DNA from: Verrucomicrobiota bacterium
Lineage (GTDB): Bacteria > Verrucomicrobiota > Verrucomicrobiia > Opitutales > Puniceicoccaceae
DNA: 64,000 nucleotides
Reading direction: 5' to 3'
Assembly (NCBI GenBank): GCA_038744685.1
Contig: JBCDMB010000003.1
Coordinates: 1-64,000, forward strand
Shown: piece after piece, positions 10,249-29,200 of the stretch
Position numbering within the stretch: the first letter of the stretch is position 1
How the letters are laid out: each line of letters starts with the position of its first letter
Translations under genes and position numbers: made by a program
Notes under the pieces: model-generated
Database searches by the model: none
What the model saw: only the letters and a program-made list of their open reading frames with translations
What the model was told of the DNA's origin: nothing

Positions 10249-10352
10249 GCAAGTACTTTCGAGCACCTACTGACGTGCTCTCTGAACAATCTGTAATGCA
10301 CTGATACCAGTTTATGGGGGCAGACAAAAGGCATTGGACAACCGAAGGTCTG

Positions 10353-12497
10353 ATGAAATTCCTCAAACGTCGCCGAGTCCTTGTTTTCTCCGCGATCACA
10401 GCAGTTCTGACTGGCACTGCTTTGCTCCCGCAATTCGAGTATTTCAAGTTTTTCTACTCGATTGATCAGTCCTTTCTGAGTTTTCGCTACTTTATTCGGG
10501 GATTCGAAGACAGTGCCAAGGACAGAGCACCAATCGTCATCGTAGGGGTGGATGACGCCTCCCTCTATTCTGTTCTTTCAGGAGAAGTGTCAGAGGAGGA
10601 CCTAGCAGCAAATCCTGAAGTGTCGAATCTGAATAGTTCGTGGCCTTGGAACCGATCGGTTCACGGCTTTCTCGCGGAGCGACTCTTTGATGCAGGTGCA
10701 AGGGTTGTGGCGTTTGACTTTATTTTTCCGACGCCGAATGAAGGCGATTGGCAATTTTACGAGGTTATAGAAGCCAATATTGGAAGACTCATCATAAGCT
10801 ATAACTACGTTCCTGTTGAATCCGAACTAGGCGAAATCAGAATGGTGGAGAGCCTTCCTTATGAGGATCTCCTTCCGATCGAGGGTGAAGAGGAACTCCT
10901 TGGCTTTGTAAACATAGAGCGAGATTCCGATGGTGTTCTACGGCGGGCCAAACTTCGAACGAATCTGTATGCCGAAAACCAAAGGTTTATTTTGGATCCC
11001 GCACTGCGGGCGAATGTCTTAAACCGTGCGAAGAGATCTCCACCCTCTTTCTCGCTCGGCACACAAGCAGCCATTCTGTCTGATCCTGCAGTGCGCGAGG
11101 AAGTTCCGCCTCTCTTCCAGTCTCCACTCGTCAACTACGGTGGACTGGACTACTTCCCGACGGTCAGTTACCTCGATGTTCTCCTCGAGGATCGGTTCGA
11201 TGCTCAAAAGTCCCTGTTTCAAGATGCCATCGTTCTTGTCGGTCCATTTTCCGATTTTTTCAAAGACATCTATGCCACTCCGATCGGAGACTTATTCGGG
11301 GTCGAATATCATGCCCACATCACCCGTTCACTGCTGAACCGATCATTCTTCACTGAACTTCGAGGCCCGGCCCGTCTCGCTGCCCTTGTCTTTTTCGCCT
11401 TCGCTTTGCTGATCGGCACGCTGAAGTTCAGGGGCGCTCTGCAAAAAGCCGGATGGATGGTGGCATTGATAGTTGTCTACCTCGTTCTTTCGCAACTTGC
11501 CTTCAATCATCTGCATCTTGTCGTCCCTATTGTTCCTGCTCTCTGGATACTCCTTGGCACCGGATTCACCTTCATCATCTACGACTTCGCCCTAAGTCAA
11601 TATGACCGACTGAAACTGAAAGGCTATCTGAGCCGGTACGTATCTCCGGAGGTCGCCAGCGTCCTGTCCGACGAGTCATCCGAGCTGGAAACCATACTCA
11701 CGGGTGTCAGCCGTCCAGTCGCAGTTCTCTTTTCTGATATTCGCGGCTTCACCACGCTTAGCGAGCACTACGCTCCCGTCAAACTTGTCGCACACTTGAA
11801 TGACTATTTCGAGAGCATGGTTGGCTGTATCCACAAACACAATGGCACCCTCAACAAATACATTGGTGATGCTATTCTTGCCGTCTGGGGAGGACTCTTC
11901 AGTAAGGGCGCAGAGAATGACTGTTTACATGCGGTCAGCTCGGCTCTCGACATGGAGCAGCAGATGATCGAGCTCAACCGAAATTGGTCTAACGATCCCG
12001 ATAAACTCCCGTTTAAGATCGGTATCGGGATTAGTCACGGAAACGCATTTGTTGGAAACATGGGCCACTCCAATCGCAAAGAATTTGCTGTCATGGGAGA
12101 TGTCGTCAATCTCGGCTCCCGCCTCGAAGGGGCAACCAAGCAATACGGTTGCAGCATCCTCGTCTCCGAAGAAGTCTACCAGCTGTGCAAAAACAAGGTT
12201 CGGTTTCGGGATGTGGACATTATCCGAGTCAAAGGAAAGAGTAAAGGCGTTCACACCTACGAGCCGATCAACTTTGTTTCAGATCCCGAGCCCTCCTGGT
12301 TGGATCAGTGGAACCAATCACTCACAAAATATCGCGAGCGTGACTTCAAAACCGCTCAGACGCATTTCTCTCGACTCAAAGAAAGCGTTCCCGCGTTAGT
12401 CCAGAGTGCGACGCTTTACGAAGAACGCTGTAAATTGCTGATTACGATGCCGCCTCCGGAAAACTGGGATTTCGTTTACGTGATGGAGACTAAGTAG
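10353..12497 (+). CDS. CHASE2-domain adenylate cyclase (class III)
   Basis: Membrane receptor cyclase making cAMP from ATP. In order: a basic KRRR stretch and N-terminal TM, a periplasmic CHASE2 sensor (IVIVGVDDASL through WPWNR and GARVVAFDFIF), three close TM helices, then a class III cyclase domain. Counted from the upstream in-frame ATG at 10314, the helices are near residues 350-420 and the metal aspartates are D475 (LFSDIRGFT) and D519 (NKYIGDAILAVWG). The block NRKEFAVMGDVVNLGSRLEG holds the base-selecting and transition-state residues, and K before EF suggests adenine specificity. ATG 10353 is chosen because GAAGG lies 4 bases upstream and the topology is better. A short C-terminal helical tail follows. 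Confidence 0.9.
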   Translation: MKFLKRRRVLVFSAITAVLTGTALLPQFEYFKFFYSIDQSFLSFRYFIRGFEDSAKDRAPIVIVGVDDASLYSVLSGEVSEEDLAANPEVSNLNSSWPWNRSVHGFLAERLFDAGARVVAFDFIFPTPNEGDWQFYEVIEANIGRLIISYNYVPVESELGEIRMVESLPYEDLLPIEGEEELLGFVNIERDSDGVLRRAKLRTNLYAENQRFILDPALRANVLNRAKRSPPSFSLGTQAAILSDPAVREEVPPLFQSPLVNYGGLDYFPTVSYLDVLLEDRFDAQKSLFQDAIVLVGPFSDFFKDIYATPIGDLFGVEYHAHITRSLLNRSFFTELRGPARLAALVFFAFALLIGTLKFRGALQKAGWMVALIVVYLVLSQLAFNHLHLVVPIVPALWILLGTGFTFIIYDFALSQYDRLKLKGYLSRYVSPEVASVLSDESSELETILTGVSRPVAVLFSDIRGFTTLSEHYAPVKLVAHLNDYFESMVGCIHKHNGTLNKYIGDAILAVWGGLFSKGAENDCLHAVSSALDMEQQMIELNRNWSNDPDKLPFKIGIGISHGNAFVGNMGHSNRKEFAVMGDVVNLGSRLEGATKQYGCSILVSEEVYQLCKNKVRFRDVDIIRVKGKSKGVHTYEPINFVSDPEPSWLDQWNQSLTKYRERDFKTAQTHFSRLKESVPALVQSATLYEERCKLLITMPPPENWDFVYVMETK

Positions 12498-12656
12498 TCA
12501 CTCGCGTGCAAGGTGCTGCAGAGAAGAGAAAAACCGCTCGAAACACAGGAAAAAGGTTCAGATTTTTTTCGATTTATACCTCGAACGATCTGAAAAAGTC
12601 GTCCATCCTCCGACGTTTTCTCTCTAAACACCTTCAGAGCCACAGGAGAATCAGCC

Positions 12657-13949
12657 ATGAAAAACATTGTTGCCGTACTATCCCTTTTCATCACCGCCCT
12701 ACTAGCGTATGGGGCTGACTCACCTGCTGGGTTGAAGGAGTCCACGATCGTTGAAACCGTTTCCGACGTCAGTGTTCTCACCGGAAAAGATCTCGATTCG
12801 AGTCCGGCATTTGAAGGAGAAATCTTCAAAGCACCCGATTTTTTGGAGACAGGACGGAGATCGAGGGCTAGGCTGGAGGCAGAGGATGGAACGATCACCC
12901 GGATCGGCTCGAACACCCTCTTTTCCTTTCAAGAAAACGACCGCACGATCAAGCTGGAGCGTGGTTCCATTCTCTTTAGCTCACCAGAAGGGCGTGGCGG
13001 AGGAAGAATTGTTACGGCCTCGGCTACCGCATCAGTAGTCGGAACTACCATCATTGTTGAGGCAACAGAAGACGGCGGTTTCAAAGTTTTCGTTCTTGAA
13101 GGGTCGGCCACAGTCACGTTTCCAGACAATTCAACGGCATTTCTGGAAGCCGGACAGATGACCTTTGTTCAACCGAATTTGCCCGGTGTCTCGAATGGGG
13201 AATCAGGTAGGGGCCCTGTCCTCAACTTCGACCTTGAGGCCTTTGTCAAGGACTCTCAACTGGTGAACGGCTTCGACTCTCCCTTGCAAAGTCTTCCCTT
13301 CATTGATGCCGCTATCGCCGAACAGGACCAGAGGATAGAGGATGGAAGCCTTCAAAAGGCCGGTCGATTCGTTTTACTCTCAGATGACGATAATATCGTC
13401 GACCTCGATCTCGCCGCTTTGAATAAGCTCTTTGAAAACGAAGACGATAGGGCTTTAGATGGTCTCGAACCAATGGTTCTAGTGGGCGGTATATCGGCCT
13501 TGGTTGAGACTGCTGACGTCGCGTTCGGCAACCTCCCCTCCGGAAAAGTAGTTACAATTAGCGACGAGGGAGTTGAGACCCTCGATCCAGAAGACGTTGG
13601 TGAGATCCCAGCAGAACTGCCGCGAGTCACGGTCGGTGCGATTGACTTTCTTCCAGAAGATCAAAAAGCCGCGCTCGCGATCAAGCTCGAGAAAGCATTT
13701 GAAGAGGTTCTGAAATCCTATGAAGACGGTTCGGTCTCGGCTGAAGATACAATTGCTATCGCAAAGTTTCTTCTAAGTCTCGATCTACCTCTGGATGAGC
13801 GTTTCAAGGACGATGTGGAGGATCAATTTGGTCCGCTTTTAGACGAACCGGATGAAGAGGGTCCCTTCGAGGACTCCCAAGATTTGTTGGATGACTCCAC
13901 TCAAGTGACGGATCCGATTGATATCAACGATGGTTACTTTGCGCCCTAG
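12657..13949 (+). CDS. FecR-domain secreted protein
   Basis: Signal peptide (MKNIVAVLSLFITALLAYG) followed by a FecR beta domain: GRRSRARLEAEDGTITRIG, ERGSILFSSPEG, TASVVGTTIIVEA and KVFVLEGSATV are its usual strands. The rest, from about residue 190, is acidic, lacks recognisable domains and is rich in D and E. FecR domains of this secreted kind are often encoded next to CHASE2 proteins and are thought to act as periplasmic ligands or sensors. Here it follows the CHASE2 cyclase by 159 bp, which suggests it feeds that receptor. A good ribosome site, AGGAGA, lies 8 bases before the ATG. It is not a sigma/anti-sigma FecR, since it has no cytoplasmic N-domain and no TM helix beyond the signal. 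Confidence 0.82.
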   Translation: MKNIVAVLSLFITALLAYGADSPAGLKESTIVETVSDVSVLTGKDLDSSPAFEGEIFKAPDFLETGRRSRARLEAEDGTITRIGSNTLFSFQENDRTIKLERGSILFSSPEGRGGGRIVTASATASVVGTTIIVEATEDGGFKVFVLEGSATVTFPDNSTAFLEAGQMTFVQPNLPGVSNGESGRGPVLNFDLEAFVKDSQLVNGFDSPLQSLPFIDAAIAEQDQRIEDGSLQKAGRFVLLSDDDNIVDLDLAALNKLFENEDDRALDGLEPMVLVGGISALVETADVAFGNLPSGKVVTISDEGVETLDPEDVGEIPAELPRVTVGAIDFLPEDQKAALAIKLEKAFEEVLKSYEDGSVSAEDTIAIAKFLLSLDLPLDERFKDDVEDQFGPLLDEPDEEGPFEDSQDLLDDSTQVTDPIDINDGYFAP

Positions 13950-14152
13950 GTAGTGCCTGTGTTTGATTGGCGTGTCGCCAAACCTCTTCCATCCATATCC
14001 GGCAACCTCACTCTTCGAGAAAAGCTGCCCACTCCCCACTAACATTAGAACTGTCGGTCTCTTTCGAACACGAAAGCCCCACTGCGCAAAACTTATAATA
14101 TTACGACTCCTCTGATTTTCATTTCAGCGACACCCCTCAAAGAAGCACCGCC

Positions 14153-15565
14153 GTGTATAATCTAAGCTCTAAAAGAGACGGGAGTTTTCTTACGGCCAAA
14201 GACGATTCCCGAATACCGCCGGGCATTCGGGTCCGAAAACTGCGGAAAGGTGGTATCTCCTACAAGAGGTGGTTGCTCCCTCTCTCATGGGGACACCTTA
14301 CACTCCGAGAGGCTTACGAGTACTTGACGATCGTAGGTGCACCCCAAGGCGAGATTCCAGAGGTAATTCGGTGGACCGAAGGAAAAGACTCTCACCTGGT
14401 AAAACAGTTCTTCTACGGTGGGGTTGACCTCAGAGCGCACGACTACATTCACATCCTCCTCGGTCGTGGCCTGCTTCCCAAAGATGAAGCTTTCGTGATT
14501 GGATTCACCATGGGCAGTACGAATCGTCTTCACTCCATGAACGAAGACGCGTTCGCCTACATTGCTAAACACCATTATCCAAACGCCTACCGCATGGATG
14601 ACGAATCGCGTGAGGTGTTTTTGGACGCTACCAAGCTCGGTTTTGTGTCCGATTGCACTCCTCTGGATCAAATCGATTTCAAACCTTTCCTCGATACCAC
14701 CATCGACGAAGTCAGAAAACGGATCAATCTGAGGCCGGACCTTTTAGAAGCCTATTTCCGCGATGTTGAACAACTTCGCTTTCCCGAAGATCCTGCTAGC
14801 AAACGCCTCCTGCCCCCAACTCCCCCAAGGGATGATCGCTGGATCCTTTACTCCGAAGATGATCAGCGCAAGATGTCAGATGTCGTGGCCGAACTGAACC
14901 ACCTTCTGGACGAGAGCGACGTCGGAGCCACCCTTGAAGAAGCAGAATTTCAGTCAAACCTCTCTGCAGCGCGCACCTCGGTCTTGGAACACCTTGAAGG
15001 ACAAAGGGATCTCGCCAAACATTGCTTCGAGGAAATAGACCGTGTTCTCGAAGGCGAAAACCCGCAGGCAAGGAGGGACGTTGAAGAAGCTCGCTGGAAC
15101 GATTTTTACGAGCAAGCGAAGGGTAACGTTGAATTGGCAAGCGCTATGGTTGATCGCGAGGTGCATCATTTGACTTGGGAAGGGCATGAGTCCGAACAAA
15201 GGGAACTCAGGACTTGGGTGCATGCCATCCTTGGAAGAGGAGCGTCTCCGCGTGACCGTGCTTTTTGCCGAGGTTTCTATCACGGAAGCTCAAACAATCG
15301 AACCAGTTACGCATCGCTTCTCAAACTGGGGCTCATGCAAAACCTACCCATCTGTAGAGACGGACTTTTCTCGGAGGACATGAGCGAAGTCTACAATGAC
15401 GGAGTTCGCTTGGGCCATATCAGCCCCTGCAAGCCACTGGCAGAAGTCGATTTTGAATCCCTATCATCCTTCACCGTTCGAGAAGCACGACAGCACATCG
15501 ATCTGAAAACGGGTCTTCTGTCGGCCTACCAGAGAGGTATCGAAGACCAACGTCTCTTACTCTAG
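14153..15565 (+). CDS. Duplicated Coq4-like domain protein
   Basis: A 470-residue protein built of two homologous halves joined by a charged helical linker. Both halves share an ILLGRG / AILGRG turn, a GFTMGS / GFYHGS helix, GFVSDCTPLDQIDF / GHISPCKPLAEVDF, and RINLRPDLLEAY / HIDLKTGLLSAY. The first copy has H96-D97-Y-I-H100, then eleven residues, then E112: exactly the HDxxH-x11-E metal motif of the ubiquinone-biosynthesis protein Coq4. In the second copy HD has become LR and E has become R, with only one H kept, so that site looks dead. No signal peptide or TM. The start is GTG with a weak ribosome site. No quinone genes are nearby, so the function is unknown. I am sure of the duplication, less so of Coq4 kinship. 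Confidence 0.7.
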   Translation: MYNLSSKRDGSFLTAKDDSRIPPGIRVRKLRKGGISYKRWLLPLSWGHLTLREAYEYLTIVGAPQGEIPEVIRWTEGKDSHLVKQFFYGGVDLRAHDYIHILLGRGLLPKDEAFVIGFTMGSTNRLHSMNEDAFAYIAKHHYPNAYRMDDESREVFLDATKLGFVSDCTPLDQIDFKPFLDTTIDEVRKRINLRPDLLEAYFRDVEQLRFPEDPASKRLLPPTPPRDDRWILYSEDDQRKMSDVVAELNHLLDESDVGATLEEAEFQSNLSAARTSVLEHLEGQRDLAKHCFEEIDRVLEGENPQARRDVEEARWNDFYEQAKGNVELASAMVDREVHHLTWEGHESEQRELRTWVHAILGRGASPRDRAFCRGFYHGSSNNRTSYASLLKLGLMQNLPICRDGLFSEDMSEVYNDGVRLGHISPCKPLAEVDFESLSSFTVREARQHIDLKTGLLSAYQRGIEDQRLLL

Positions 15566-15587: not shown

Positions 15588-17375
15588 TCACTCGATACCA
15601 ATACTCTCAAGAAACGCGATTTCATCGCGCCATTCTTTCCTGAGGGAATCGGAAAAGGCTTCGGGATCATCGAGTAAGCTCTTCCGGGTGCAATTGACCA
15701 AAGCCTGCAAGGTCTGGTAGCGACGGGTATCGGCGATGTCCGGGGGAATCAGGTCATCGATCAGTCTTTCGACTTCCTCGAGATCGAGAGCGGCTCCCAA
15801 ACTCCGCAGTTCGCTTCTCAAATTAGCAAATTGCGCGGCAGAGTAGGCCTCCGTTTTAGTGCGAAGCCGCTCCAATTCATGCTCCCCCAACTTTTTCTTC
15901 AGCACTCCTTTAAGAGACCACCGGAGAAAGTCCTCGTGATCCTGTCCCTTCGGATCGAGAACGGGAATAATCAAACTACCTGCACGACCCGGACGTCGAA
16001 TATCCGGGGACAGGAGATGGATACGCGCCGTAATCAATAACCAAGTCACCTTTCCCTTCATCGTCTGGTCAGACATCAACGCTTGGATCTTTCCAGTGAG
16101 CCTCCGTTCCGTTGAATGGTCGCCTTTGCCAACTCCTCCAAACTGGGTGTCCGCTTCATCAATAAAAATCAACGCTCGACCAACCGCCTGAAGGACCCGC
16201 TTCAATTTCTCAAAAAGAACATCGGTCTGCCCAAACCACTGCGACCGAATATTTTTGATCGTCATCACCACTATGCCCAACTCTCCGGCTACCGCTTCAA
16301 AAACAAATGTCTTTCCAGAGCCAATGGGTCCGGCGACTGCAGCACCCGTCAATGCACTTGAATCGGTCGAACGAATACGCGGAATGAACTCGTCCTTCAG
16401 GTAAGACTTTAGTCGGGAAAAACCCACTACATCCCTGAGCCCGTGATCGGGCTTCTTGAACTCAACAATGTCCTCACCGATCTGATCGATTATAAATGCC
16501 TCCACTTTGGCAACAACGTCTTCCGGCCGAAGGGACTCGTTTCGATAGGCCGCGCCTTTTAGCAGTTGCTGGAGCGCATAAAGGGACAATCCAGCTGACA
16601 GCTCAGCAATCGCTGTCTGGCTCATACCACGCTTCAATTTCTGTGTTTCCGGTAGCGTCCCGTTGAACCACTGAATAAACTCTTTTCGAGCTTCAAAGTC
16701 AGGGGATTCGATCTCCACAGAGAGAACCTGAGGTAGCCGCGAGACGCGGTGATTGATCAGACTTTCCGCCTCCGCAACGAGAACCACTGTGTCTTCTCCG
16801 CTGGCAAATGACGGTTCCGAAAACCAATCCTGAACTTTACAAACACGACTCCTATCTTTCTCCGACAAATTAGCCAGTGGCCCTTCCGGGAGTATGACAT
16901 CAGCATTGTCGATAACGATAATGACCCTGCTCTCGATAAGACCACGGCGTGAACACAAGGTGATCTGGCGAAGGATCTCCAGAGCCTGAAGACTATCACC
17001 AACGGCCTTGAGGATACGGTCTTCGAGACTGGGAGTGACTGGCTTCTTGACCTTTTTTCCGAGCATTTCCCGGATCGCAGCTTCATCGCGATCCACTCCC
17101 CCTCTCAGTGCATCCCATGCTTTTCCTACATCTTCACGGTTTGCCTCCGGTATCTGAATAAGCCCGTTCAATTCGTAACGGATTATGATGTTTCCAGCCA
17201 ACCCCCACCGGGCGGCCAAGAGAGAGCCGAGATCGGTGTAAACCACCTCATCCCGATCAGCCTTTTCTTCGATTGCAAAGAGGTCATGAACGTTTCCATG
17301 GAGAATCAGGGATCGGCTTTGCCCTGAATTCACAATTCTTCCCGCCTCTCGAAGGAACGTATGGTCTGTCTTCAT
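15588..17375 (-). CDS. Double-AAA ATPase of the PspA module
   Basis: A Ycf46/Cdc48-like AAA protein of 595 residues. The C-terminal AAA domain (about 310-500) is complete: Walker A GPIGSGKT with K355, Walker B LIFIDEAD with D406/E407, sensor region LLITARIHLL and the arginine-finger block DIRRPGRAG. The N-terminal AAA-like half opens with SLILHGNVHDLF and keeps a Walker B-like VIIVIDNAD near 151-159 but lacks a Walker A, so it is probably structural. It lies 213 bp after pspA on the same strand. By analogy with Vps4 acting on ESCRT-III, it may disassemble PspA polymers; this is inference from the known PspA/ESCRT-III homology. No TM helix. Confidence 0.85.
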   Translation of the reverse strand: MKTDHTFLREAGRIVNSGQSRSLILHGNVHDLFAIEEKADRDEVVYTDLGSLLAARWGLAGNIIIRYELNGLIQIPEANREDVGKAWDALRGGVDRDEAAIREMLGKKVKKPVTPSLEDRILKAVGDSLQALEILRQITLCSRRGLIESRVIIVIDNADVILPEGPLANLSEKDRSRVCKVQDWFSEPSFASGEDTVVLVAEAESLINHRVSRLPQVLSVEIESPDFEARKEFIQWFNGTLPETQKLKRGMSQTAIAELSAGLSLYALQQLLKGAAYRNESLRPEDVVAKVEAFIIDQIGEDIVEFKKPDHGLRDVVGFSRLKSYLKDEFIPRIRSTDSSALTGAAVAGPIGSGKTFVFEAVAGELGIVVMTIKNIRSQWFGQTDVLFEKLKRVLQAVGRALIFIDEADTQFGGVGKGDHSTERRLTGKIQALMSDQTMKGKVTWLLITARIHLLSPDIRRPGRAGSLIIPVLDPKGQDHEDFLRWSLKGVLKKKLGEHELERLRTKTEAYSAAQFANLRSELRSLGAALDLEEVERLIDDLIPPDIADTRRYQTLQALVNCTRKSLLDDPEAFSDSLRKEWRDEIAFLESIGIE

Positions 17376-17453
17376 GATCTTCTAATACCGAATTCGAGAA
17401 GGTTTGATAGATGTGGCGGGATGGAAAATATGTCTGTGCAAGGCGGCCCTACT

Positions 17454-17473
17454 GGAGGCGGGTCTGCGACCCG
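17454..17473 (+). repeat. REP-like palindrome with GGAG head
   Basis: GGAG (17454-17457) precedes a hairpin with 6-bp arms CGGGTC/GACCCG and a TGC loop. It sits in the 213-bp gap between pspA and the AAA gene. Three other sites in the window (23526-23585, 35392-35414, 43302-43323) have the same GGAG-plus-palindrome architecture with different stems. Confidence 0.6.
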
Positions 17474-17588
17474 TGCCAATCAGTGACCTGTCTTCCTTGA
17501 GCGACTCCCCATCACCCCAGAGAGTTTCACTAGTTCACAGAGTTGCCAGCGCAACGGTGCCCGGATCGAAAGAAGAACCTTCAAGGAC

Positions 17589-18401
17589 CTACTCCGGCAG
17601 TTTCTCGGGAGCAGACACTTTTGGTGAGGTCTCTGGCTCGGACTCCTTCTTTTCTTCCCCAAAGATCAAGTCGTCGAACTCTGACTTTGCCAAACTCTCT
17701 TCAGCCATACTTAAGAAATCAGCTTCCTCGAGTGCAACATCAGTCCCGGCCAATTCGCTGGTGATTTTAGCTTGAGAGCTGACTTTCCGCACCCTGTCAC
17801 GCAAAGCAGACAATTGCTCAGCAGTATCATCCTTTCCAATTCCCGCTAGAGCCTCACTGACTTCCCGCTGGTGTTTCGCCATTGTTATCTCGGCAACGGC
17901 CTCATGTTTCTCCGACTTCAGCTTCTCTAACTCGCGCTGAAAGTTGATCAACTGCTGCTTGTAAGCTTCGATCTGTTTGCTTCCAGCCTCAACGTCACTC
18001 TCCAAATCACTCACCCGCGAACGTTTCTCAGCAAGGGTTGAATTGAAATTCTTAAACGCTTCCATCGCACGAGTGTACTCCGCGCTCCCAGCCGCCTCTT
18101 CCTTTGACTTTCCCTGCGCTGCTTTCTTGGCGTAGGCGACGGCTCCTGCCGATTTCTTCTCCAAAGTCTCAATTTCGCCCACCAACTTCTCTGCTTGGGA
18201 CTTTTTGCGCTCTTGTTGAGCCATCAATCCCGCGACCGCATCCCGGATGTCCCTCACCTGTCTCGTCATATGAGCGATCAATTCATTATACTCCTCGCGG
18301 ACGACGTGACTGTCCTCAGCAATTGAGTCGGTCTTTTCGTTGATTCGTCCAGTAAGAAGGCGACCTACGGTTTTGAAGAAACGGCTTATTGCCTTAAACA
18401 T
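17589..18401 (-). CDS. pspA: PspA/IM30 (Vipp1) family membrane-remodelling protein
   Basis: A 270-residue, almost wholly helical coiled-coil protein of the PspA/IM30 family, the bacterial ESCRT-III relatives that polymerise on the inner membrane under envelope stress. The N-terminus MFKAISRFFKTVGRLL is an amphipathic membrane-binding helix. Long heptad-rich helices follow (about 30-190), then an unstructured acidic and proline-containing tail of about 60 residues that E. coli PspA lacks. The tail could be the binding site for the AAA ATPase, much as ESCRT-III tails bind Vps4. AAGGA lies 5-6 bases before the ATG. The upstream gene ends 11 bp away. No pspBC or PspF gene is visible, so control must differ from the enterobacterial system. 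Confidence 0.85.
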   Translation of the reverse strand: MFKAISRFFKTVGRLLTGRINEKTDSIAEDSHVVREEYNELIAHMTRQVRDIRDAVAGLMAQQERKKSQAEKLVGEIETLEKKSAGAVAYAKKAAQGKSKEEAAGSAEYTRAMEAFKNFNSTLAEKRSRVSDLESDVEAGSKQIEAYKQQLINFQRELEKLKSEKHEAVAEITMAKHQREVSEALAGIGKDDTAEQLSALRDRVRKVSSQAKITSELAGTDVALEEADFLSMAEESLAKSEFDDLIFGEEKKESEPETSPKVSAPEKLPE

Positions 18402-18412
18402 AATTTTCCTTG

Positions 18413-19159
18413 TTAAGATTCAATGTTGGTCGGAGAGATCTGCCAGTCGTCCATTTTTTCTTGCACGCGCCTCGAGATTTCGAGCTGAGAGTCCAATTCT
18501 TCGCGAATTCTAGCAGACTCCGCAACGCTGTAATTTTTCCGGTTGTCGATAAAGGCCATAAGGATCCTCTCGATCGACTGAATACTCTTTCGGGTCTCTT
18601 CAATCAGCTCGTTTCTTTTATCCAGAGAGGCTTTTTCCAATGACTCAATCGAAGTCTCTTCCGCTTTTCTGAGAAGTTGGACGCTTTCCTCGAGATTGCG
18701 GATACTGGTGCTCACCAGTTCCTCAACATTTTGGATCGCAAAATTTCCCTCAAGTCCCGCAACTTCGCTGTCGATTTCTTTTGAAACCGTGTTCTGGAGG
18801 GCCAGTAACCGATCAAACATTTCTTCGGTCTGTGGATCACCGTCCGAGACTAGCTGGGCCCGGGCACGGGCGAGAGCCTCGTTAACCGCCTTTTCTGCCT
18901 CGCGTGCCCTTCGGTAGACAATCTTGTCCCGTATTTTACCAGCGTTTCGCCAGTTGAAAGCCACTCTGGCAGCGTACAGGCCGACCGAAAGAAGGCTCAA
19001 CCCCACGCCTATTCCGGTGATTAGAGGCATGGACTTCCCGATAAGAAATGAGGCGACTGCCATGGGAAAACCAACGAATGCGGGAATCAAGCTGTAGGCC
19101 GGTTTGTAGAAGATCTCATCTTTGATTTCTTCTTTGATCAGCTTCTCATCGCCTTTCAT
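18413..19159 (-). CDS. Two-TM coiled-coil membrane protein of the PspA module
   Basis: Not a family I recognise. A short charged N-terminus (KGDEKLIKEEIKDEIF) precedes two adjacent TM helices (about residues 22-70, AFVGFPMAVASFLIG and ITGIGVGLSLLSVGLYAA). A cytoplasmic helical and coiled-coil domain of about 170 residues follows, rich in E, K and R. The arrangement suits an inner-membrane anchor or adaptor for the soluble PspA encoded 11 bp downstream. ATG 19159 is chosen over the upstream in-frame start at 19201 because GAAGGTG lies 6 bases before it and the longer form would overlap the preceding gene. That gene ends 10 bp upstream, so the two are surely cotranscribed. Confidence 0.8.
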   Translation of the reverse strand: MKGDEKLIKEEIKDEIFYKPAYSLIPAFVGFPMAVASFLIGKSMPLITGIGVGLSLLSVGLYAARVAFNWRNAGKIRDKIVYRRAREAEKAVNEALARARAQLVSDGDPQTEEMFDRLLALQNTVSKEIDSEVAGLEGNFAIQNVEELVSTSIRNLEESVQLLRKAEETSIESLEKASLDKRNELIEETRKSIQSIERILMAFIDNRKNYSVAESARIREELDSQLEISRRVQEKMDDWQISPTNIES

Positions 19160-19169
19160 AAAAACACCT

Positions 19170-20768
19170 TCAATACGGAAGCTGACCCGCCTCAAATACA
19201 AGGTTCAGAGAAGACCAGTCCTTGGCACTGGATAGACTGGCCACCACCCGTAGTCGATCCGGGTCGGTGCCTTCTCCAATCAAAAAATCTGCAGCCGCCC
19301 GGGCTCGCCTGAGTGCCAGATCTAGAGCCACCTGATCCAGGGCGGCATCCCCGGTTTCCTGAGACTGACCGACGAGGGTTACGTAGTAGGAAGGCCAATC
19401 CTTCAAGCGTTGTGAGATCTCTGAGAGTCTTCGCCCGTTTTGGAGGGTGATTTTGGCCGACATGCGAGGAAACCGAATTTGCTCAACCTGAAAGTTTCCC
19501 ACGGGTCGCAAACTATTCCACTGTCTCTCTCCTAGTTCCGGCATATCAACAATGCCCGTTGCCAACTCGTCCACGCTATCTTCGTCGATCCCCTCGATGA
19601 GTCTGATTCCCTTTCCCGGATGGAACCCGTTCCGATGCATTTCTGCCAGAATCGCATCGTAGTAAATGGAGTTGTATGATCCGTCCAGTGGATCCTCAGA
19701 GAGCAAACCGGTATCGACCATAACATCGGTTATTTTCTCCAGGATTTCATCAATCGACTCGCCCTCTCCTTCCCGGACGCCGAAGTAGGTAAAATTGTCC
19801 GTCGTATTTTTCCATACGATCCCATCGGCGATATTCCTAACGTAAGCATCCGAGAGCGATCCGCCCCCGAGCAGCAAATCCTCACGCACAACCTCCTCCA
19901 TACCTCCTGACGTCGTAGAACTAAAGAGGGTGCGGAGATACGACTCTAGTATAATCGCCACTACCTGTTCGTTTTCTTTGAGGAAATTTCGCTCTACGAC
20001 CAAAGCATCGAGGATGAATCCTTTCGTCCTCGAGCTATCCAGAAGCACATGAACGTCGGGATCTTCCAACGCCTTCGAAACCTGAGGCTCCCACATCACA
20101 TAGGCGAACGGCTCCTTCGGATCTCCTTTGAGAAGGTCTTCCAGAATTTTCTCTGAACCCGGTCTTTTCACCCTCCAATCGGGCGAAAGACTGGGCAATA
20201 CGAAGCTCTCTACCGTGATTTCCGCTAGAAACTCCGAAGGCGACTCCCCGGTAAAGAAGACTCTTGCATCCGGTTGATCCAGATCCTGGATTTTTGAAAG
20301 GCCTTCCCTGTAAGCAACAATGGCGTCAGCCCCTTGGGTTTCATCGATGATCAGGACAATCGTCGCGGGAAACTGACCTACTTCGGCACCCGCTTTCAGA
20401 AAGGAATTCAGGGGAAAAGCCGCCATTTGTGCGTCGCCCGAAATGAGTGCCTGCATTCGTGCTCCGTAATCAGCATGATCGTCGATAATTTCCAAATCGA
20501 TCTTCTCTTTCGCCAGCGCTTCCCTGAACTCATCCGATCTCAGAATGGCATACCCCGAAAACCCATCCGCATAAAGAACTACCTCGTGTTCTATATCCCC
20601 TTTTGCTTTCGCACTTGTTTCAGCTACCAGTGCCTCTGCTGCCTCGTTCTCCCTTCGCTCCTGCAAGAAAGGGTCGACGATGAAACGATAAATCAAAACG
20701 CAACCCGTCACGATGATCACCCATGCGACAAAAGCGGCAACGACGCCCTTTTTCCCGCGACTGGCCAT
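19170..20768 (-). CDS. Membrane-anchored substrate-binding/OmpA-like fusion protein
   Basis: One N-terminal TM helix (GVVAAFVAWVIIVTGCVLIY) anchors a periplasmic domain that looks like an NMT1/TauA-type periplasmic binding protein: VVLYADGFSGYAIL, MQALISGDAQMAAFPLNSFL and ILDALVVERNFLKEN are equivalent to the ligand-binding strands. The last 110 residues form an OmpA-like domain with VTLVGQSQETGD and LALRRARAAADFL, the usual R-A-x2-V-x2-L helix, but it ends before the ENRRV block, so peptidoglycan binding may be weak. It is paralogous in layout to the product of 21557-23383. No ABC permease or ATPase is encoded nearby, so the binding domain probably senses rather than transports. It starts 8 bp after the VWA gene. 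Confidence 0.82.
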   Translation of the reverse strand: MASRGKKGVVAAFVAWVIIVTGCVLIYRFIVDPFLQERRENEAAEALVAETSAKAKGDIEHEVVLYADGFSGYAILRSDEFREALAKEKIDLEIIDDHADYGARMQALISGDAQMAAFPLNSFLKAGAEVGQFPATIVLIIDETQGADAIVAYREGLSKIQDLDQPDARVFFTGESPSEFLAEITVESFVLPSLSPDWRVKRPGSEKILEDLLKGDPKEPFAYVMWEPQVSKALEDPDVHVLLDSSRTKGFILDALVVERNFLKENEQVVAIILESYLRTLFSSTTSGGMEEVVREDLLLGGGSLSDAYVRNIADGIVWKNTTDNFTYFGVREGEGESIDEILEKITDVMVDTGLLSEDPLDGSYNSIYYDAILAEMHRNGFHPGKGIRLIEGIDEDSVDELATGIVDMPELGERQWNSLRPVGNFQVEQIRFPRMSAKITLQNGRRLSEISQRLKDWPSYYVTLVGQSQETGDAALDQVALDLALRRARAAADFLIGEGTDPDRLRVVASLSSAKDWSSLNLVFEAGQLPY

Positions 20769-20775
20769 CACCCGT

Positions 20776-21516
20776 TCAAGGCAACTGCCCGAGCGGCTGA
20801 TTTCCCCCTTCGGAAAGTATGTCGATCACAGCAAGGGTGGTCTCGTCGTTGCCAAAAACATCCAAAAAGGCATACACGTCTTCAGAAGTTGCGTCGCCAC
20901 TACCGGGATTAGGCACTTCGGCGAGAAACGAAGTTACCGCTTCCCGAAGAGACGCTGCGTCATTGGCTGCGACATACTGGTTGGCCAACGTTTTCAGCGT
21001 ATGCGCTTGCCTCATCCCAACCCCAATCACATCCAGGGAAATCCCGCGGCCCACTAGCTCTTTCGCGTAGAGGCGCATCAAGTCATCATCACTCGCCTCA
21101 CCATCGGTCACTACAATCAACCGGTAGGTTCCGTAATTGAAGTTCTTTTCCCTTTGTTCAAGGAGCGCATCAGCAGCCATCTTCATGTGCTTGCCAAGAG
21201 GTGTGCTCCCGCCAGCTTCAATCCCTTTTACACTGTCCCACACCTTTTTCCGGTCGAACGGCCCGAGGGGATATACCCATCCATTCGCATTTCTGCTAAA
21301 CACAATACACCCGAAATTGGTTTCCGGGGTGAGCCTATCCAATGCCGGAATGAGGGCCAGCTTTGCAGCCGTCATTTTATCTTTTCTCCCAATTTCGTTT
21401 TCCATAGATCCCGAACCATCAATCAGGATCACTACATTATCCGGTGCCTGAGAGCCGAAGCCCTTTTGTGCGAAAATGAAGAGGGAGAAGATGAGGGAAA
21501 AGATGAACAGTTTCAT
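20776..21516 (-). CDS. Secreted von Willebrand A domain protein
   Basis: Signal peptide (MKLFIFSLIFSLFIFAQKGFG) followed directly by a VWA domain. The metal-ion-dependent adhesion site is complete: VILIDGSGSMENEIG (DxSxS form, D-G-S-G-S), the threonine in GGSTPLG, and VVTDGEASDDD. Such domains bind protein ligands through a divalent metal, so it probably bridges the periplasmic parts of the neighbours. About 246 residues; the last 70 are helical and low in known motifs. It lies between two SBP-OmpA fusion genes with 40-bp and 8-bp spacers. ATG 21516 gives a clean signal peptide and is preferred to the in-frame start at 21579, which would overlap the upstream gene. Confidence 0.85.
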   Translation of the reverse strand: MKLFIFSLIFSLFIFAQKGFGSQAPDNVVILIDGSGSMENEIGRKDKMTAAKLALIPALDRLTPETNFGCIVFSRNANGWVYPLGPFDRKKVWDSVKGIEAGGSTPLGKHMKMAADALLEQREKNFNYGTYRLIVVTDGEASDDDLMRLYAKELVGRGISLDVIGVGMRQAHTLKTLANQYVAANDAASLREAVTSFLAEVPNPGSGDATSEDVYAFLDVFGNDETTLAVIDILSEGGNQPLGQLP

Positions 21517-21556
21517 TGAATGCCCTGGTGGTTGAGGGGTGAAGACTAGGGTCAGG

Positions 21557-23383
21557 TTAAAAATCAAAGTCTGATTCATTCTGTGCCTCTGCAGACACCC
21601 GAACCAAAAGGAACTCTACACGGCGGTTCTCCCCCGCCTCTTTAGCATTGGAAGGTTTCGGATGCACAGGCTCACGAATACCAACGCCAATCGGTTGGAT
21701 TTGCGATGCATCAAGGGGAATGGTCTCGACATTCGCAAAGCTCACCACTGCGTCCTTCACCGACTCAGCCCGCGAACGGGATAGATTCAGGCCAGCCTGC
21801 ATCACCTGACGGGGAGTTTGCCCTTTGTAGGTGACTCGATCAAAGCTGCCGTTGGCGATGAGGTCGGTCAGCAATTTTGTATTCGTGATATCGAGACGTT
21901 TCCCGTTGAGGAAGTAGCTGTAGTTTCCTGCGCTACCGGTCTGCTCGATGATATCACTTTCGATTCCACCCTTTACCAAGGTAAGGAGAGTCAACGTCGG
22001 ATCCGTGTGACCCCGAACCGCAATCACCGCATTCCCGTATTGCTGGACGAGCTCAAGGATCTTGCTGAACTCCACTCCGTACTGGACAGCACTAAACTCA
22101 TTCTGGTTGGGTTGAAACGTGATCACGACACTGTAGATCACATTGTCCGCGAGGTCACCGCCTGCATTCAGAAGTTCAAGCTCCTCGATCGTTGCCTCTG
22201 CGTTGAAACGTGGTTGCTGCTCAGTATCTGTTTTGGATAGAAAATCCGTAAACGCCGGGCTGTTCCAGTCGAGGTCGGACGGAATAAATCCCTGCCGCAC
22301 AGAGGCGTAGCCTCGTTTCGCAGCCATATCGAGTGCCCTCCGTTGAAAAGCGGAAAAGCCCCGGAAAGGGTTTTGGTCGCTGAAGAACGCGATGTTTCCC
22401 GGGTGACCCGCAAACGTGCAGTCAAGAAGGAGTCCGTGAGCATCGGCTTCAAGAGAAGGGATCACATCTTCGCCGTAGATATCCTGGGTTAGCTGCAGAA
22501 GCTCCATGTATTCCTCGCTTCCGTCTTCCTCGTAGTCCTTTTGGAGATCAATCAGCGTTTCTGCTGCCTTTAAATAACCAGCCGAAAACTTGGTCACCCA
22601 CTCCTTGTTCTCTTCATACCAATCGCTTCGGCACGCATAGACATCCGCGATCGAATAGGACCGCTCTGCTGTCGAGGCGAGGACCCTAGCCCCCCGGACA
22701 GAGCCCTCGATCCCAGTCCCCGTCTCCTGAAGACCACCCGTTAGCCCAAGCATGTCCGGGGTGATCACAAAAGCCACGTCCACCTCTTCATTATCGCGAA
22801 AAATCGCTGCCGGGCTATCGTCCGATCCAGTCAGATCCGTAGCCCAGATCACGTTGACGTCATCCCAGCTGTAGCCCGCGTCAGAAAGGAGGTCATCCAG
22901 TAAGCCTTCATGGGGCCCGGACTTCTGTAGTACCACAGTAGCCCCTTTCAAATCGGCGAGGGTCTTTATGTCGGAACGAGAAACCGCGTGGTCTCCCGCG
23001 CTCCACGTTAGCTGAAGAAAAATTACGGGTTTTGTCCGGGGATCCTGCCCGAGAACCTCAGAAGCCATGCCGAGCATTCGATAAGTTCCCCGCAGAAAAG
23101 GGCTTTTCCCCTCTAGATAGTTCCGCACCTGCTGGGGAAAATCGTCACCCGGCACCAAATCAATCTCCAGTCCCTGTTCGGCAAAAATAGAGCCCGGCTC
23201 TGTATCCAAACCTCCGTTCGCGTAAAAAGTAGCCATATCTCCACCCCAGACGATAAATGGGACTTCGACTGCCTTTCCTGGCTCAACCTCTCCTACCGTG
23301 ACCGGGCCAATCAAGTCTTGATACGGCTCCGCGATAAGAGTCGAAATGGCGACAAACAATGAGAAAATAGGGATACCTTTCAT
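21557..23383 (-). CDS. Secreted substrate-binding/OmpA fusion protein
   Basis: First gene of the PspA-module operon. Signal peptide MKGIPIFSLFVAISTLIA, then an NMT1/TauA-like binding-protein domain of about 380 residues (VPFIVWGGDMATFYANGG, KTLADLKGATVVLQKSGP, VDVAFVITPDMLGLTGG). A complete OmpA-family peptidoglycan-binding domain follows: VIAVRGHTDP, LNLSRSRAESVKDAVV, and GVGIREP...ENRRVEFLLVRV with the expected N-x2-x-R-R-V-E core. The protein should sit in the periplasm tied to the cell wall. No transporter genes accompany it. ATG 23383 is preferred to 23401 because the signal peptide then starts properly. Similar fusions are annotated in databases as phosphate ABC-type SBP/OmpA proteins, but nothing here shows phosphate specificity. 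Confidence 0.85.
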   Translation of the reverse strand: MKGIPIFSLFVAISTLIAEPYQDLIGPVTVGEVEPGKAVEVPFIVWGGDMATFYANGGLDTEPGSIFAEQGLEIDLVPGDDFPQQVRNYLEGKSPFLRGTYRMLGMASEVLGQDPRTKPVIFLQLTWSAGDHAVSRSDIKTLADLKGATVVLQKSGPHEGLLDDLLSDAGYSWDDVNVIWATDLTGSDDSPAAIFRDNEEVDVAFVITPDMLGLTGGLQETGTGIEGSVRGARVLASTAERSYSIADVYACRSDWYEENKEWVTKFSAGYLKAAETLIDLQKDYEEDGSEEYMELLQLTQDIYGEDVIPSLEADAHGLLLDCTFAGHPGNIAFFSDQNPFRGFSAFQRRALDMAAKRGYASVRQGFIPSDLDWNSPAFTDFLSKTDTEQQPRFNAEATIEELELLNAGGDLADNVIYSVVITFQPNQNEFSAVQYGVEFSKILELVQQYGNAVIAVRGHTDPTLTLLTLVKGGIESDIIEQTGSAGNYSYFLNGKRLDITNTKLLTDLIANGSFDRVTYKGQTPRQVMQAGLNLSRSRAESVKDAVVSFANVETIPLDASQIQPIGVGIREPVHPKPSNAKEAGENRRVEFLLVRVSAEAQNESDFDF

Positions 23384-23401
23384 AACAAAACCACTTACCA
23401 T

Positions 23402-23891
23402 ACTTAAACGTCCAAACCGGCGATACTCCTATCAACCAAGAGGACTCTGATGCAAGCCTATCGTCGTAAACCGTCAGATCCAGGGTGTAATTAAAAGCGT
23501 GGGGTATCGGGCTAATAAGTACTGATGCGGACTCAAGTCCGCGCTCCTCAAGACCATCACGATGGAGCGCGGACTTGAGTCCGCACCGGTGGAGTAGTGT
23601 GTTTTCCATACTACCCCGTGGGTTTAATTACACCGTCTAATCCACCAATCGCTCAAGCCCTACCCAAATCACCGCACCCACAAACTCCATCCTTGTGGGC
23701 CAACGACCAACTCAAAGGTAAAAACCACTGCCTTACCTCTAACATTTCGCCATGCTCACACATGGCATCCTCGCAGATTTCCCATTTTTCTCACTGAAGA
23801 TCAAAGACCGGTTCTCTCACCATACAAAGATTCAAGAGGAAACATCTTGCGGTTCAGACAGACCCATGCCCCAATTTCGGGGACGGATCCC
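23402..23891. other. Intergenic region between divergent units
   Basis: About 490 bases without a convincing gene. It must hold the promoters of the minus-strand PspA-module operon and the plus-strand M20-like/gpgS unit. The only clear structure is the inverted pair of GGAG palindromes at 23526-23585. Confidence 0.6.
23526..23585. repeat. Inverted pair of GGAG-headed REP palindromes
   Basis: Two perfect 22-base copies in opposite orientation (23526-23547 and 23564-23585) with a 16-base spacer. Each copy is itself a palindrome, GCGGACT-TG-AGTCCGC, headed by GGAG. This is the layout of a bacterial interspersed mosaic element built from REP sequences. The whole could fold as one 22-bp hairpin in RNA. 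Confidence 0.75.
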
Positions 23892-26031: not shown

Positions 26032-26297
26032 TTTTTTGGAGGTCCCGAAAGACACATGCGCCACTTAAACGTGAGACTCCTGTAGTTGAACCAACTTTCT
26101 TTTAACGCAGCACACAGATCCGACAACCTGTTCTCAGGTTTGCGGAATAACCTTTTCAAAGTCCCGATTTCTTTCTCAGGACGCCCGTTTTTTCGGTTTA
26201 ATTTGGCTGAAAAACCTATTTGTATTCAAAAGGGTGTAGACCATCTCTTCCACAAGTCCATCATCGGTTCACCTATTGCTTTTCCATCCTCCTCCTC

Positions 26298-29200
26298 ATG
26301 TGCATGCTTTTTCGCCAAAGCCTTGACTGTGAAGCGATCCGGATTCTTGGCCTCGCAGCATCCACTCTGCTGGTGCCCTGTCTTTCAAGTGGAGAAATCA
26401 GTTTTTTAGAGCTCAGTGCTGATGGACAGGGAGACTTCCCCTGGCACCAGACCCTAAACTGGGACCAAGAAGTGCTGCCAACCGATTCGGATGTGGTCCA
26501 GATCGGCAACACATCCACTGAAGTCCACTGTCACATTAAAGGCCCGGGAGCTGTTGCCCAAAGCATTGAGATTTCTGAATACGGACTCGATGGTGGTTTC
26601 ACCAACACTCTGACTCTTACCGACTCTGGCACACTCGATGTCTCAAGCATTTTTGAAGTCGGGAAAGACAAACACGGGGTTTTCGTCATGGAGGGAGGCC
26701 TCTTAACTGTAAATTCCTTCCTACTGATAGGCTCGACCAATCGAGGATCCGACGCCTGGGGGACCATGGAGATCAAGGGTGGAACAGCGACTGCAAGAAA
26801 CCAGATTCTAATTGGACGAAGTCGATTCGCTCCAACAACCTCAAATAGTTCTCTTATCCTCTCGGGAGGCAGTCTGAATGCGGAGCAAAACCTCACTGTG
26901 GATTCCATCGACCGAACGCAACCCGGGATTTTTCTCCTGGAAGGCGATGCGACCTATCAACAAGTCTCTAACAGACTGACCGAAGTTCAGTCGGGTGTCA
27001 TGGAGATCCGGGGCAATCAGGTTTCTATTGATCTGGGAGATCTTGCTCTCACTCAAAACACCTCATCCAAGCTTATTTTTTCTGGTAACGGAGTCAGTAC
27101 GTTACGAGCACAAGATGTCTATTTTTCTTCCAGCAGCCAGTTAGATGTTTCGGGGCTTACTGTTGGCAACGGGAAATATGTTCTCGTCAACGGAGAGACC
27201 ATTACCAACGACGGTATTTTTTTCACCTCCAATGTTGACCGGAACCTCTGGCATCTGGAGGTCGATTCGGCCTCTGGAGATCTTTGTCTGACTCGTGGCA
27301 ACGGACCGGTTCAACACGATCTACTTATTTATGGTGGGAGTGGTAGTGGCATGTATGCAACAGGCACAATCGTTCCGATCCAGGCTGCGGCTCCCGCACC
27401 TGGCCTCGTTTTCGACACATGGGAGGGCAGTGTCGAAGAGATTGACGACCTCTTTGCCACCGAGACCACATTTACTATGGGAAGCGGTTCCACAACGATA
27501 ACCGCGATTTACAAGCCCATTGGCACTCCCCATACTCTCACAGTTTACGACGGCAGTGGCCAGGGAGAATACGGCCCGGAACAAGTCATTCCCATTCAGG
27601 CAGATCAAAGTGTCGCAGGTCGCACCTTTGCCCGTTGGTTGGGAGATAGTGGGATCGCCGATCCATTTTCTCCGACCACCACATATACGATGCCAAACAG
27701 GGAGTCTGTCCTTGAAGCTCAATTCTATCAAAATGAATGCCATGCCGGAGACCGAGGTTACCGCGCCAGACCCTGTGGTCTTGATCTGAATAATGATGGC
27801 GAAATCGGTGAGGATGGCGTAGACAATATTCTGGGCCGGAACGGATCCAACTGGAACTGGTTGGATCCGGATGGAGACGGTGATTTCGAAGACTATTTTT
27901 TTGTCGATTCCTTCAACGGGAACGACAGCAATCCGGGAACCAAGAACGCTCCTCTGAAAACCATTCAAGCAGCCCTCGATCTTTGCGATGGAGCTGCGAA
28001 TGGTATAGAAGACATCATCTGCATATACGGTATCTTCGGAGAGGAAATTACCCTTACCCAGAGTGGCAAGCCAGGCCACTACACAAGGCCCGATGATCAC
28101 TTTGAGTTTCCTGCTGATCCGATGCGTATCATTGGCTGGGACAAAGATGAGGATGGAGAATACCCGCCCTACGATAAGGACGATCAAGCTGTCATTGATG
28201 GAAGTAGCGGGCTGATCACTGCTATCTACAATGATAACAAGGTCAGTTACGTTGAGATCGCCCATTTAAGCATCCATAACTTCCAGGGCTGGTCGCCTGA
28301 CAGTTCCCGTGGAGCAATTCGATTTTCCCGCAGCGGTGGTAACGACGTGAGCCACATTTACGTGCACGACGTCGAGATGAAAAATATCAACACGAACACC
28401 CCATGGGATCCAAGTGTCCCTCCTGAAGACGTTGTTCATTTTGAGCACCGAGGTGGTGAACGCATAGTTGCAACATTCTGGAATGGGGATACGGCTCTTC
28501 AACATATCGCTATGTGCAACATCCTGGTGGATGGCTTCGGAGACTTTTTTGCTCGTGGTGCCCCCGCTAACGGCAGTGGAAATTTCCGCTTCCAAAACAT
28601 GACATTGAACTGCAAGTCCTTCGACGGAGCAGGTATCACTGGGTTCAAAATCTGGGGGGCTCACGAGAACGTCGAGATTCTGGATAGTATCTTTGACGGT
28701 CGCCCCGGAGACTGGAGCTACGGACAAGGAGGCCCTCGCATGGTAGCTATCCGCCCGGATCAACGCAATGTAACTGTCCGCAACAACCTCTTTCTGAACG
28801 CCCGCGCCGCCGTCACTATTGACGGATGCTCATTGAATTTTGGGCCAAACCGAACGACTGATAACGTTGTTGTCGATAGCAACCATATCATCACCACTCA
28901 CGACGACTGGGGACCGGGAGGTGGAAAACCAGTAGGTATTAGGATCGAACCAGGCTGCGATATAGGCCGCACCACCGAAGACATCGCCATCGTAAACAAC
29001 TTTATCCATATTCCAGTGTGGGGGGCATCTGCCCTTATCCTGAGCCCGGGGATGACAGAGTCGGGTCAAGCCGCTCAACCCGGTACGCTCACCGTAGCTC
29101 ACAACACCATATGGGGTCCCGGCGAGGGCCACAATTTTTACGGGATTCTGATCGATTTGGACCAAGTGACGAATCCACAACGTAATTTTCTCATCAAAAA

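Follow-up and report, generated by a model that had tools for sequence, protein, structure and literature searches.

The closest described relatives of the system studied here come from work on PspA gene neighbourhoods. The main text of Ravi et al. (2024, mSystems, PMC11237479) describes PspA alongside a protein that has two AAA modules, the first of them inactive (example OGG56892.1), and longer operons that add an ATP-binding cassette (ABC) ATPase, a permease and a PBPB-OmpA protein; ATP-dependent membrane remodelling was proposed for them. The existence of a Vps4-like ATPase for bacterial PspA/Vipp1 was stated to be an open question by Liu et al. Here, we analyse a six-gene minus-strand module (15588-23401) in a stretch of 64,000 nucleotides from a Verrucomicrobiota bacterium (contig JBCDMB010000003.1, positions 1 to 64,000), hereafter the window. 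It encodes two fusions of a solute-binding protein (SBP) with an OmpA-like domain, a VWA protein, a protein with two transmembrane (TM) segments, PspA and a tandem AAA ATPase (AAA2). We show that this module is a shortened version, without the transporter, of a nine-gene operon that occurs in several phyla, that the durable core of the system is PspA plus AAA, and that PspA of this family has a conserved C-terminal [L/I]PE tail. An earlier analysis from the letters alone (the sequence-only reading) had supposed that parts of the system had appeared in PspA-neighbourhood surveys, and rightly so: the neighbourhood is already known from Ravi et al. (2024), and the tail is the new clue. Gene content and order, the integrity of domains and motifs, the conservation of the tail and the co-occurrence of PspA and AAA are all computed observations.

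The window shares with the neighbourhood of Ravi et al. PspA, the two-AAA protein with an inactive N-terminal copy and the solute-binding/OmpA fusion, and its relatives also share the ABC genes. It differs in having no ABC transporter and in having two SBP-OmpA paralogues and a VWA protein. Their operon includes a Snf7 homologue with a TM segment, whereas for the two-TM protein of the window (P0004) comparison with Pfam and with a PspA profile detected no Snf7 or PspA homology. The main text of that paper mentions no VWA protein, transporter-less form, series of bare or split loci, or [L/I]PE tail, and the main text of Popp et al. (2022) does not mention the neighbourhood. As in ESCRT-III/Vps4, a polymer protein of the ESCRT-III superfamily stands beside a classical AAA module and carries a C-terminal motif that could recruit the ATPase. 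Yet Vps4 has one AAA module and an N-terminal MIT domain, whereas here there are two modules and no MIT; [L/I]PE is not a known MIT-interacting motif, and a Snf7 homologue is not shown here. The classical phage-shock response (PspF, PspABC) has PspA and the envelope link in common with our locus, but the operon lacks PspF, PspB and PspC and its AAA protein is not an NtrC-type activator. The absence of these three genes, already remarked in the sequence-only reading, holds for the operon and the scanned flanking genes, the rest of the genome not having been searched for them. Finally, FtsZl1-VWA-OmpA systems (Makarova and Koonin 2010, PMC2875224) also combine VWA and OmpA proteins with a cytoplasmic polymer-forming protein, but the window has PspA and a tandem AAA protein instead of an FtsZ-like one. 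A literature search for a comparison with TelA/XpaC-type proteins gave nothing usable.

The six open reading frames (ORFs) are transcribed in the order SBP-OmpA1, VWA, SBP-OmpA2, 2TM protein, PspA, AAA. Genes, order, spacers and domains were all found as first read. The spacers are 40, 7, 10, 11 and 213 bp, using internal ATG starts for VWA (21516), SBP-OmpA2 (20768) and the 2TM protein (19159). Pfam and NCBIfam gave back names for five of the six proteins, P0004 having no match. The features are as follows.

21557..23401, minus strand: SBP-OmpA1 (P0001, 614 aa), secreted; NMT1-type solute-binding domain and C-terminal OmpA-like peptidoglycan-binding domain.
20776..21516, minus strand: VWA protein (P0002), secreted; PF00092 5.9e-14, signal-like segment; the ORF reaches 21579, the start being probably 21516.
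21406..21420, minus strand: DGSGS loop of the metal-ion-dependent adhesion site (MIDAS) of the VWA protein; conserved in 18 orthologues.
19170..20768, minus strand: SBP-OmpA2 (P0003); one N-terminal TM segment, SBP-like domain, OmpA domain without the usual Asp.
18413..19159, minus strand: 2TM protein (P0004); two-TM hairpin and predicted cytoplasmic helical domain, no known family.
17589..18401, minus strand: PspA (P0005, 270 aa), PspA/IM30 family of the bacterial ESCRT-III superfamily; PF04012 4.5e-9.
18348..18401, minus strand: N-terminal amphipathic helix of PspA, MFKAISRFFKTVGRLLTG; highest hydrophobic moment in PspA.
17592..17600, minus strand: C-terminal tail LPE of PspA; candidate docking signal for the AAA protein.
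17376..17588, no strand: 213-bp gap where relatives have SBP3, ABC permease and ABC ATPase; no convincing remnant.
15588..17375, minus strand: tandem AAA ATPase (P0006, 595 aa); PF00004 2.3e-17, above the cut-off, first module degenerate, second classical and predicted active.
16308..16331, minus strand: Walker A GPIGSGKT of the second AAA module; GKT invariant in 17 sequences.
16230..16238, minus strand: pore-loop-like motif WFG of the second module; W and G invariant, F/Y between them.
16149..16160, minus strand: Walker B DEAD of the second module; invariant in 17 sequences.
15984..15998, minus strand: arginine-finger region RRPGR (second region of homology) of the second module; invariant in 17 sequences.

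Scanning with the AAA protein returned 17 relatives at 46-59% identity. Their metagenome-assembled genomes are labelled Verrucomicrobia, Sumerlaeota, Hydrogenedentota, Deltaproteobacteria (Myxococcota in the tree), Acidobacteria, Proteobacteria, Planctomycetota/Phycisphaerae and Omnitrophota. The order SBP-OmpA1, VWA, SBP-OmpA2, 2TM protein, PspA, SBP3, ABC permease, ABC ATPase, AAA occurs in 13 loci, two of which have their outermost gene cut at the end of the stretch. L010 shows the nine-gene order with only SBP3 undetected, and three distant operons (L046-L048) have the identical order. The sequence-only reading had named absence of the gene order in related genomes as evidence against it. 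The order was looked for and found conserved across several phyla, and hence the six-gene set is not a chance arrangement. Yet the six genes are not the whole unit: the module is the nine-gene operon minus its three ABC-transporter genes (SBP3, permease and ABC ATPase), with AAA directly after PspA.

PspA and AAA outlast the other parts, and the pairing proposed at first recurs well beyond the full operon. Nine loci have a bare PspA-AAA pair with the other parts not nearby (L016, L017, L045, L101-L105, L107), and eight of these nine genomes have no SBP-OmpA1 at E<=1e-20, completeness being known for one of them (92%). In the ninth, G646, the pair (L016) is accompanied by the other seven genes, which lie together elsewhere (L069): this is a split system, a seven-gene cassette and a separate PspA-AAA pair, with both halves kept. 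Three genomes of the Planctomycetota sample (L142-L144) have a rotated order with AAA first, and G1003 and G1008 keep both PspA and AAA on one contig but separated by more than 1 Mb. In a set of 384 genomes from the window's class, six have AAA2 at full strength and seven have the family PspA, all six being among those seven (Fisher 1.6e-12, ignoring relatedness). The contig with the seventh PspA (G167) ends inside an ABC gene, immediately before the place expected for AAA. The natural series of nine-gene operon, six-gene operon and bare pair shows which parts form the core. The system is rare: it was found in 6/384 genomes of the class, 5/388 of a phylum sample and 15/392 of the Planctomycetota sample. 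Some loci depart from this picture. G878 has AAA2 and ABC genes broken by stops or into fragments (L093/L109), with no family PspA found, and appears to be decaying; G727 (L105, L108) has two AAA2-like genes and one family PspA; and L068 has a weak PspA-like protein near distant SBP-OmpA1-like and VWA-like genes, a possible further variant.

The second line of evidence is the C terminus of PspA. P0005 passes the PF04012 cut-off (36.7 bits vs 33.9), and its strongest amphipathic segment is residues 1-18 (hydrophobic moment 0.69 vs a mean of 0.28). The C terminus of the family has a conserved stretch (EFLEYA, then EFDxLxGL), a variable linker, roughly 15-30 residues long, and a fixed end. [LI]PE lies within the last four residues in all 33 distinct family PspAs and in none of 33 other PspAs of the same phylum. 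The 33 tails are LPE (27), LPEN (2) and IPE plus one residue (4). The motif was spotted in the first 22 sequences and every later family member kept it, including the Planctomycetota PspAs fetched afterwards, four of them as IPE. Its retention does not depend on which gene follows, be it SBP3, the permease or AAA, and the tail persists where AAA is far away; it is thus not imposed by an overlap with the gene that comes after it. A separate group of PspAs, several beside a different AAA protein of 556-575 aa, mostly ends in M[GA]P (L060-L063, L138, L139), and one of its members, L137, carries TMGQ. In the second PspA-AAA family (L074-L076), PspA is likewise followed by a related AAA protein of this size, and L076 also has SBP3, permease and ABC ATPase, but these AAA proteins score 174-203 bits to the AAA2 profile and the PspA tail is M[GA]P instead of LPE. 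This hints that PspA tail and ATPase type may be matched.

What kind of ATPase accompanies the tailed PspA? In an alignment of 17 sequences the second module of AAA2 keeps GPxGxGKT, DEAD, RRPGR and the W-[FY]-G loop, and the first module is degenerate with no recognisable Walker A. An AlphaFold2 (AF2) model of the protein has a predicted local distance difference test (pLDDT) score of 81. Across both modules it resembles p97/Cdc48/Rix7-type tandem AAA proteins in sequence and in fold, at a TM-score of about 0.5. From sequence and model, the protein is a Cdc48/Rix7-type tandem ATPase with a predicted dead first and intact second module, its placement within the clade being tentative at this TM-score. 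Domain and fold comparison gave no match to an MIT domain. Hence, it may work like Vps4 but is not a Vps4. The parallel with Vps4 drawn in the sequence-only reading therefore survives as a double-AAA ATPase beside PspA, not as homology: the tandem is Cdc48/Rix7-like.

The other products face the envelope, as had been proposed: by hydropathy, P0001, P0002 and P0003 each start with a signal or anchor, P0004 has a membrane hairpin of two helices, and P0005 and P0006 have no membrane segment. P0001 combines a signal-like N terminus, an NMT1 solute-binding domain and an OmpA-like C terminus, which in the single sequence scores under the Pfam cut-off. The SBP-OmpA1 family, with orthologues in 18 loci, retains HxD and R in its alignment, the OmpA-domain residues associated with peptidoglycan binding. 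The MIDAS of the VWA protein, described as intact from the outset, has its DxSxS, T and D in place, and DxSGSM, GxTPLG and VTDG are conserved in 18 orthologues. In P0004 basic residues come after the hydrophobic hairpin, so the helical domain should face the cytoplasm, the side of PspA and AAA. Its two TM segments and helical character stand: the AF2 model is entirely helical (pLDDT 74), and this only moderate model matched no PDB fold at E<=0.001. No relation to PspA or ESCRT-III is detectable, a correction made here. P0004 as a PspA/ESCRT-III paralogue is unsupported (1.5% probability in a profile comparison with PspA), and Pfam found no match, Snf7 included, in nine family members. Its resemblance to the Snf7 homologue with a TM segment of Ravi et al. 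is limited to TM hairpin and helices, as judged through Pfam, the PspA profile and folds and not by direct comparison with a Snf7 profile.

How might these parts work together? PspA would bind the inner membrane from the cytoplasm via its amphipathic first helix and then polymerise. The tandem AAA protein would recognise the free [L/I]PE tail, and its active second ring would thread or pull PspA subunits out of the polymer, spending ATP, the first ring being dead. The job of Vps4 on ESCRT-III would thus be carried out by a different kind of AAA protein. The 2TM protein may serve as the inner-membrane anchor of this machinery. On the periplasmic side, membrane-anchored SBP-OmpA2 and the secreted SBP-OmpA1 and VWA protein would attach the site to peptidoglycan and may signal the presence of a small ligand or the state of the wall. 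Together, the 2TM and periplasmic proteins would place or trigger PspA removal at wall-attached sites. We infer tail binding, disassembly, anchoring and sensing from the observations above. We think it rather probable that AAA grips PspA by its tail and takes its polymers apart while position or signal comes from the wall-tethered SBP-OmpAs, the VWA protein and the 2TM protein. The putative PspA-AAA step has strong but indirect support. We lean slightly, on balance, towards the wider proposal of a dedicated bacterial ESCRT-III/Vps4-like pair, recruited independently of Vps4, in which the tandem AAA removes tailed PspA and which in the six-gene form would act under wall-tethered sensors without a transporter. 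A two-protein system with a three-residue tail reduces the question of a Vps4-like ATPase for PspA to a simple bench test.

Several points weigh against this proposal. The 33 tails are not 33 independent events, since the PspAs share ancestry. The PspAs of L046-L048, the most distant orthologous operons, end in ELKA, so the tail is not universal in the wider group. Most PspAs work without an AAA2-type ATPase. Bare pairs exist without the periplasmic part, which is thus not needed for PspA and AAA to act. The OmpA domain of SBP-OmpA2 lacks the usual Asp. Sensing of a ligand by the SBP-OmpA/VWA part is weakly suggested by the names of the domains, and it is membership of the operon that links the periplasm to the core.

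Of the other explanations, the one that survives best makes PspA an adaptor and not a substrate: the LPE tail would bring the AAA unfoldase to sites of inner-membrane damage, and other membrane clients, e.g. the 2TM protein or transporter subunits, would be extracted or refolded there. Recruitment fits tail conservation and co-occurrence as well as extraction does, and the Cdc48/Rix7 likeness suits a general unfoldase. In the classical response, too, PspA acts as an adaptor, its AAA partner there being PspF. But no other candidate client lies beside the bare PspA-AAA pairs, and we regard this explanation as unlikely, if worth keeping in mind.

The transporter itself suggests another possibility, namely that the operon serves mainly solute uptake: the SBP-OmpAs would feed the ABC transporter, PspA and AAA would protect the membrane, and the window would carry a reduced form. 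Most full operons have an SBP3, a permease and an ATPase of the taurine/sulfonate/urea-type family, the relatives' SBP3 and transporter falling near taurine/sulfonate and urea-carboxylase-associated transporters, and the main text of Ravi et al. (2024, PMC11237479) proposes that solute transport and membrane remodelling are connected. Yet the transporter is missing in the window and in L053 of the wider phylum, a second six-gene form, with all other motifs intact, and bare pairs are common. The rest of the window genome yielded no orthologue of the ABC permease or ABC ATPase, the best permease match being a generic taurine/sulfonate-type protein of 27% identity adjoining a 48% ABC ATPase (contig C28). 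A relic in the 213-bp gap was also sought, and six-frame comparison gave chance-level matches only. A sister of L053 in the same family, L051, keeps the full set, so the loss in L053 was a separate event. A single common origin of the ABC-less forms was rejected: the tree needs six changes, at least three forced by well-supported branches. This count takes in bare pairs and the contig-truncated locus L015, so that L053 against L051 is the only clean separate loss of the transporter alone. The ABC transporter is dispensable, an optional partner, and uptake as the main function seems to us distinctly improbable. In the proposed PspA-disassembly system the remaining SBP domains are presumably sensors or tethers and not uptake components, since SBP3 and the transporter have been lost here.

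That the window holds a decaying copy, a patchily inherited operon drifting after loss of its transporter, is very improbable: its end branch in the AAA tree, of unsettled position, is longer than any other (1.17 vs a median of 0.33), and spread is patchy, with AAA2, family PspA and SBP-OmpA1 absent from two same-genus genomes, but the six ORFs are intact and tightly packed and Walker A/B, RRPGR, MIDAS and LPE are all kept.

The six-gene set looks like a single isolated unit, because the gene on one side is convergent with it and ends at 15565, and the gene on the other side is divergent and starts at 23847. A promoter and terminator scan of the locus found sites no more frequent than in shuffles; a terminator-like hairpin directly past the AAA stop (15570-15551) is suggestive only. 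Just downstream and convergent, on the plus strand (10314-15565), lie genes for a CHASE2-adenylate cyclase, a FecR-domain protein and a 470-aa protein without a Pfam match, the three possibly forming another envelope-signalling set. Further away (26220-31313, plus strand), beside glycosyltransferases, a 1697-aa protein with golvesin C-terminal, InlB-like, Big_9 and cadherin-like domains is probably a surface protein.

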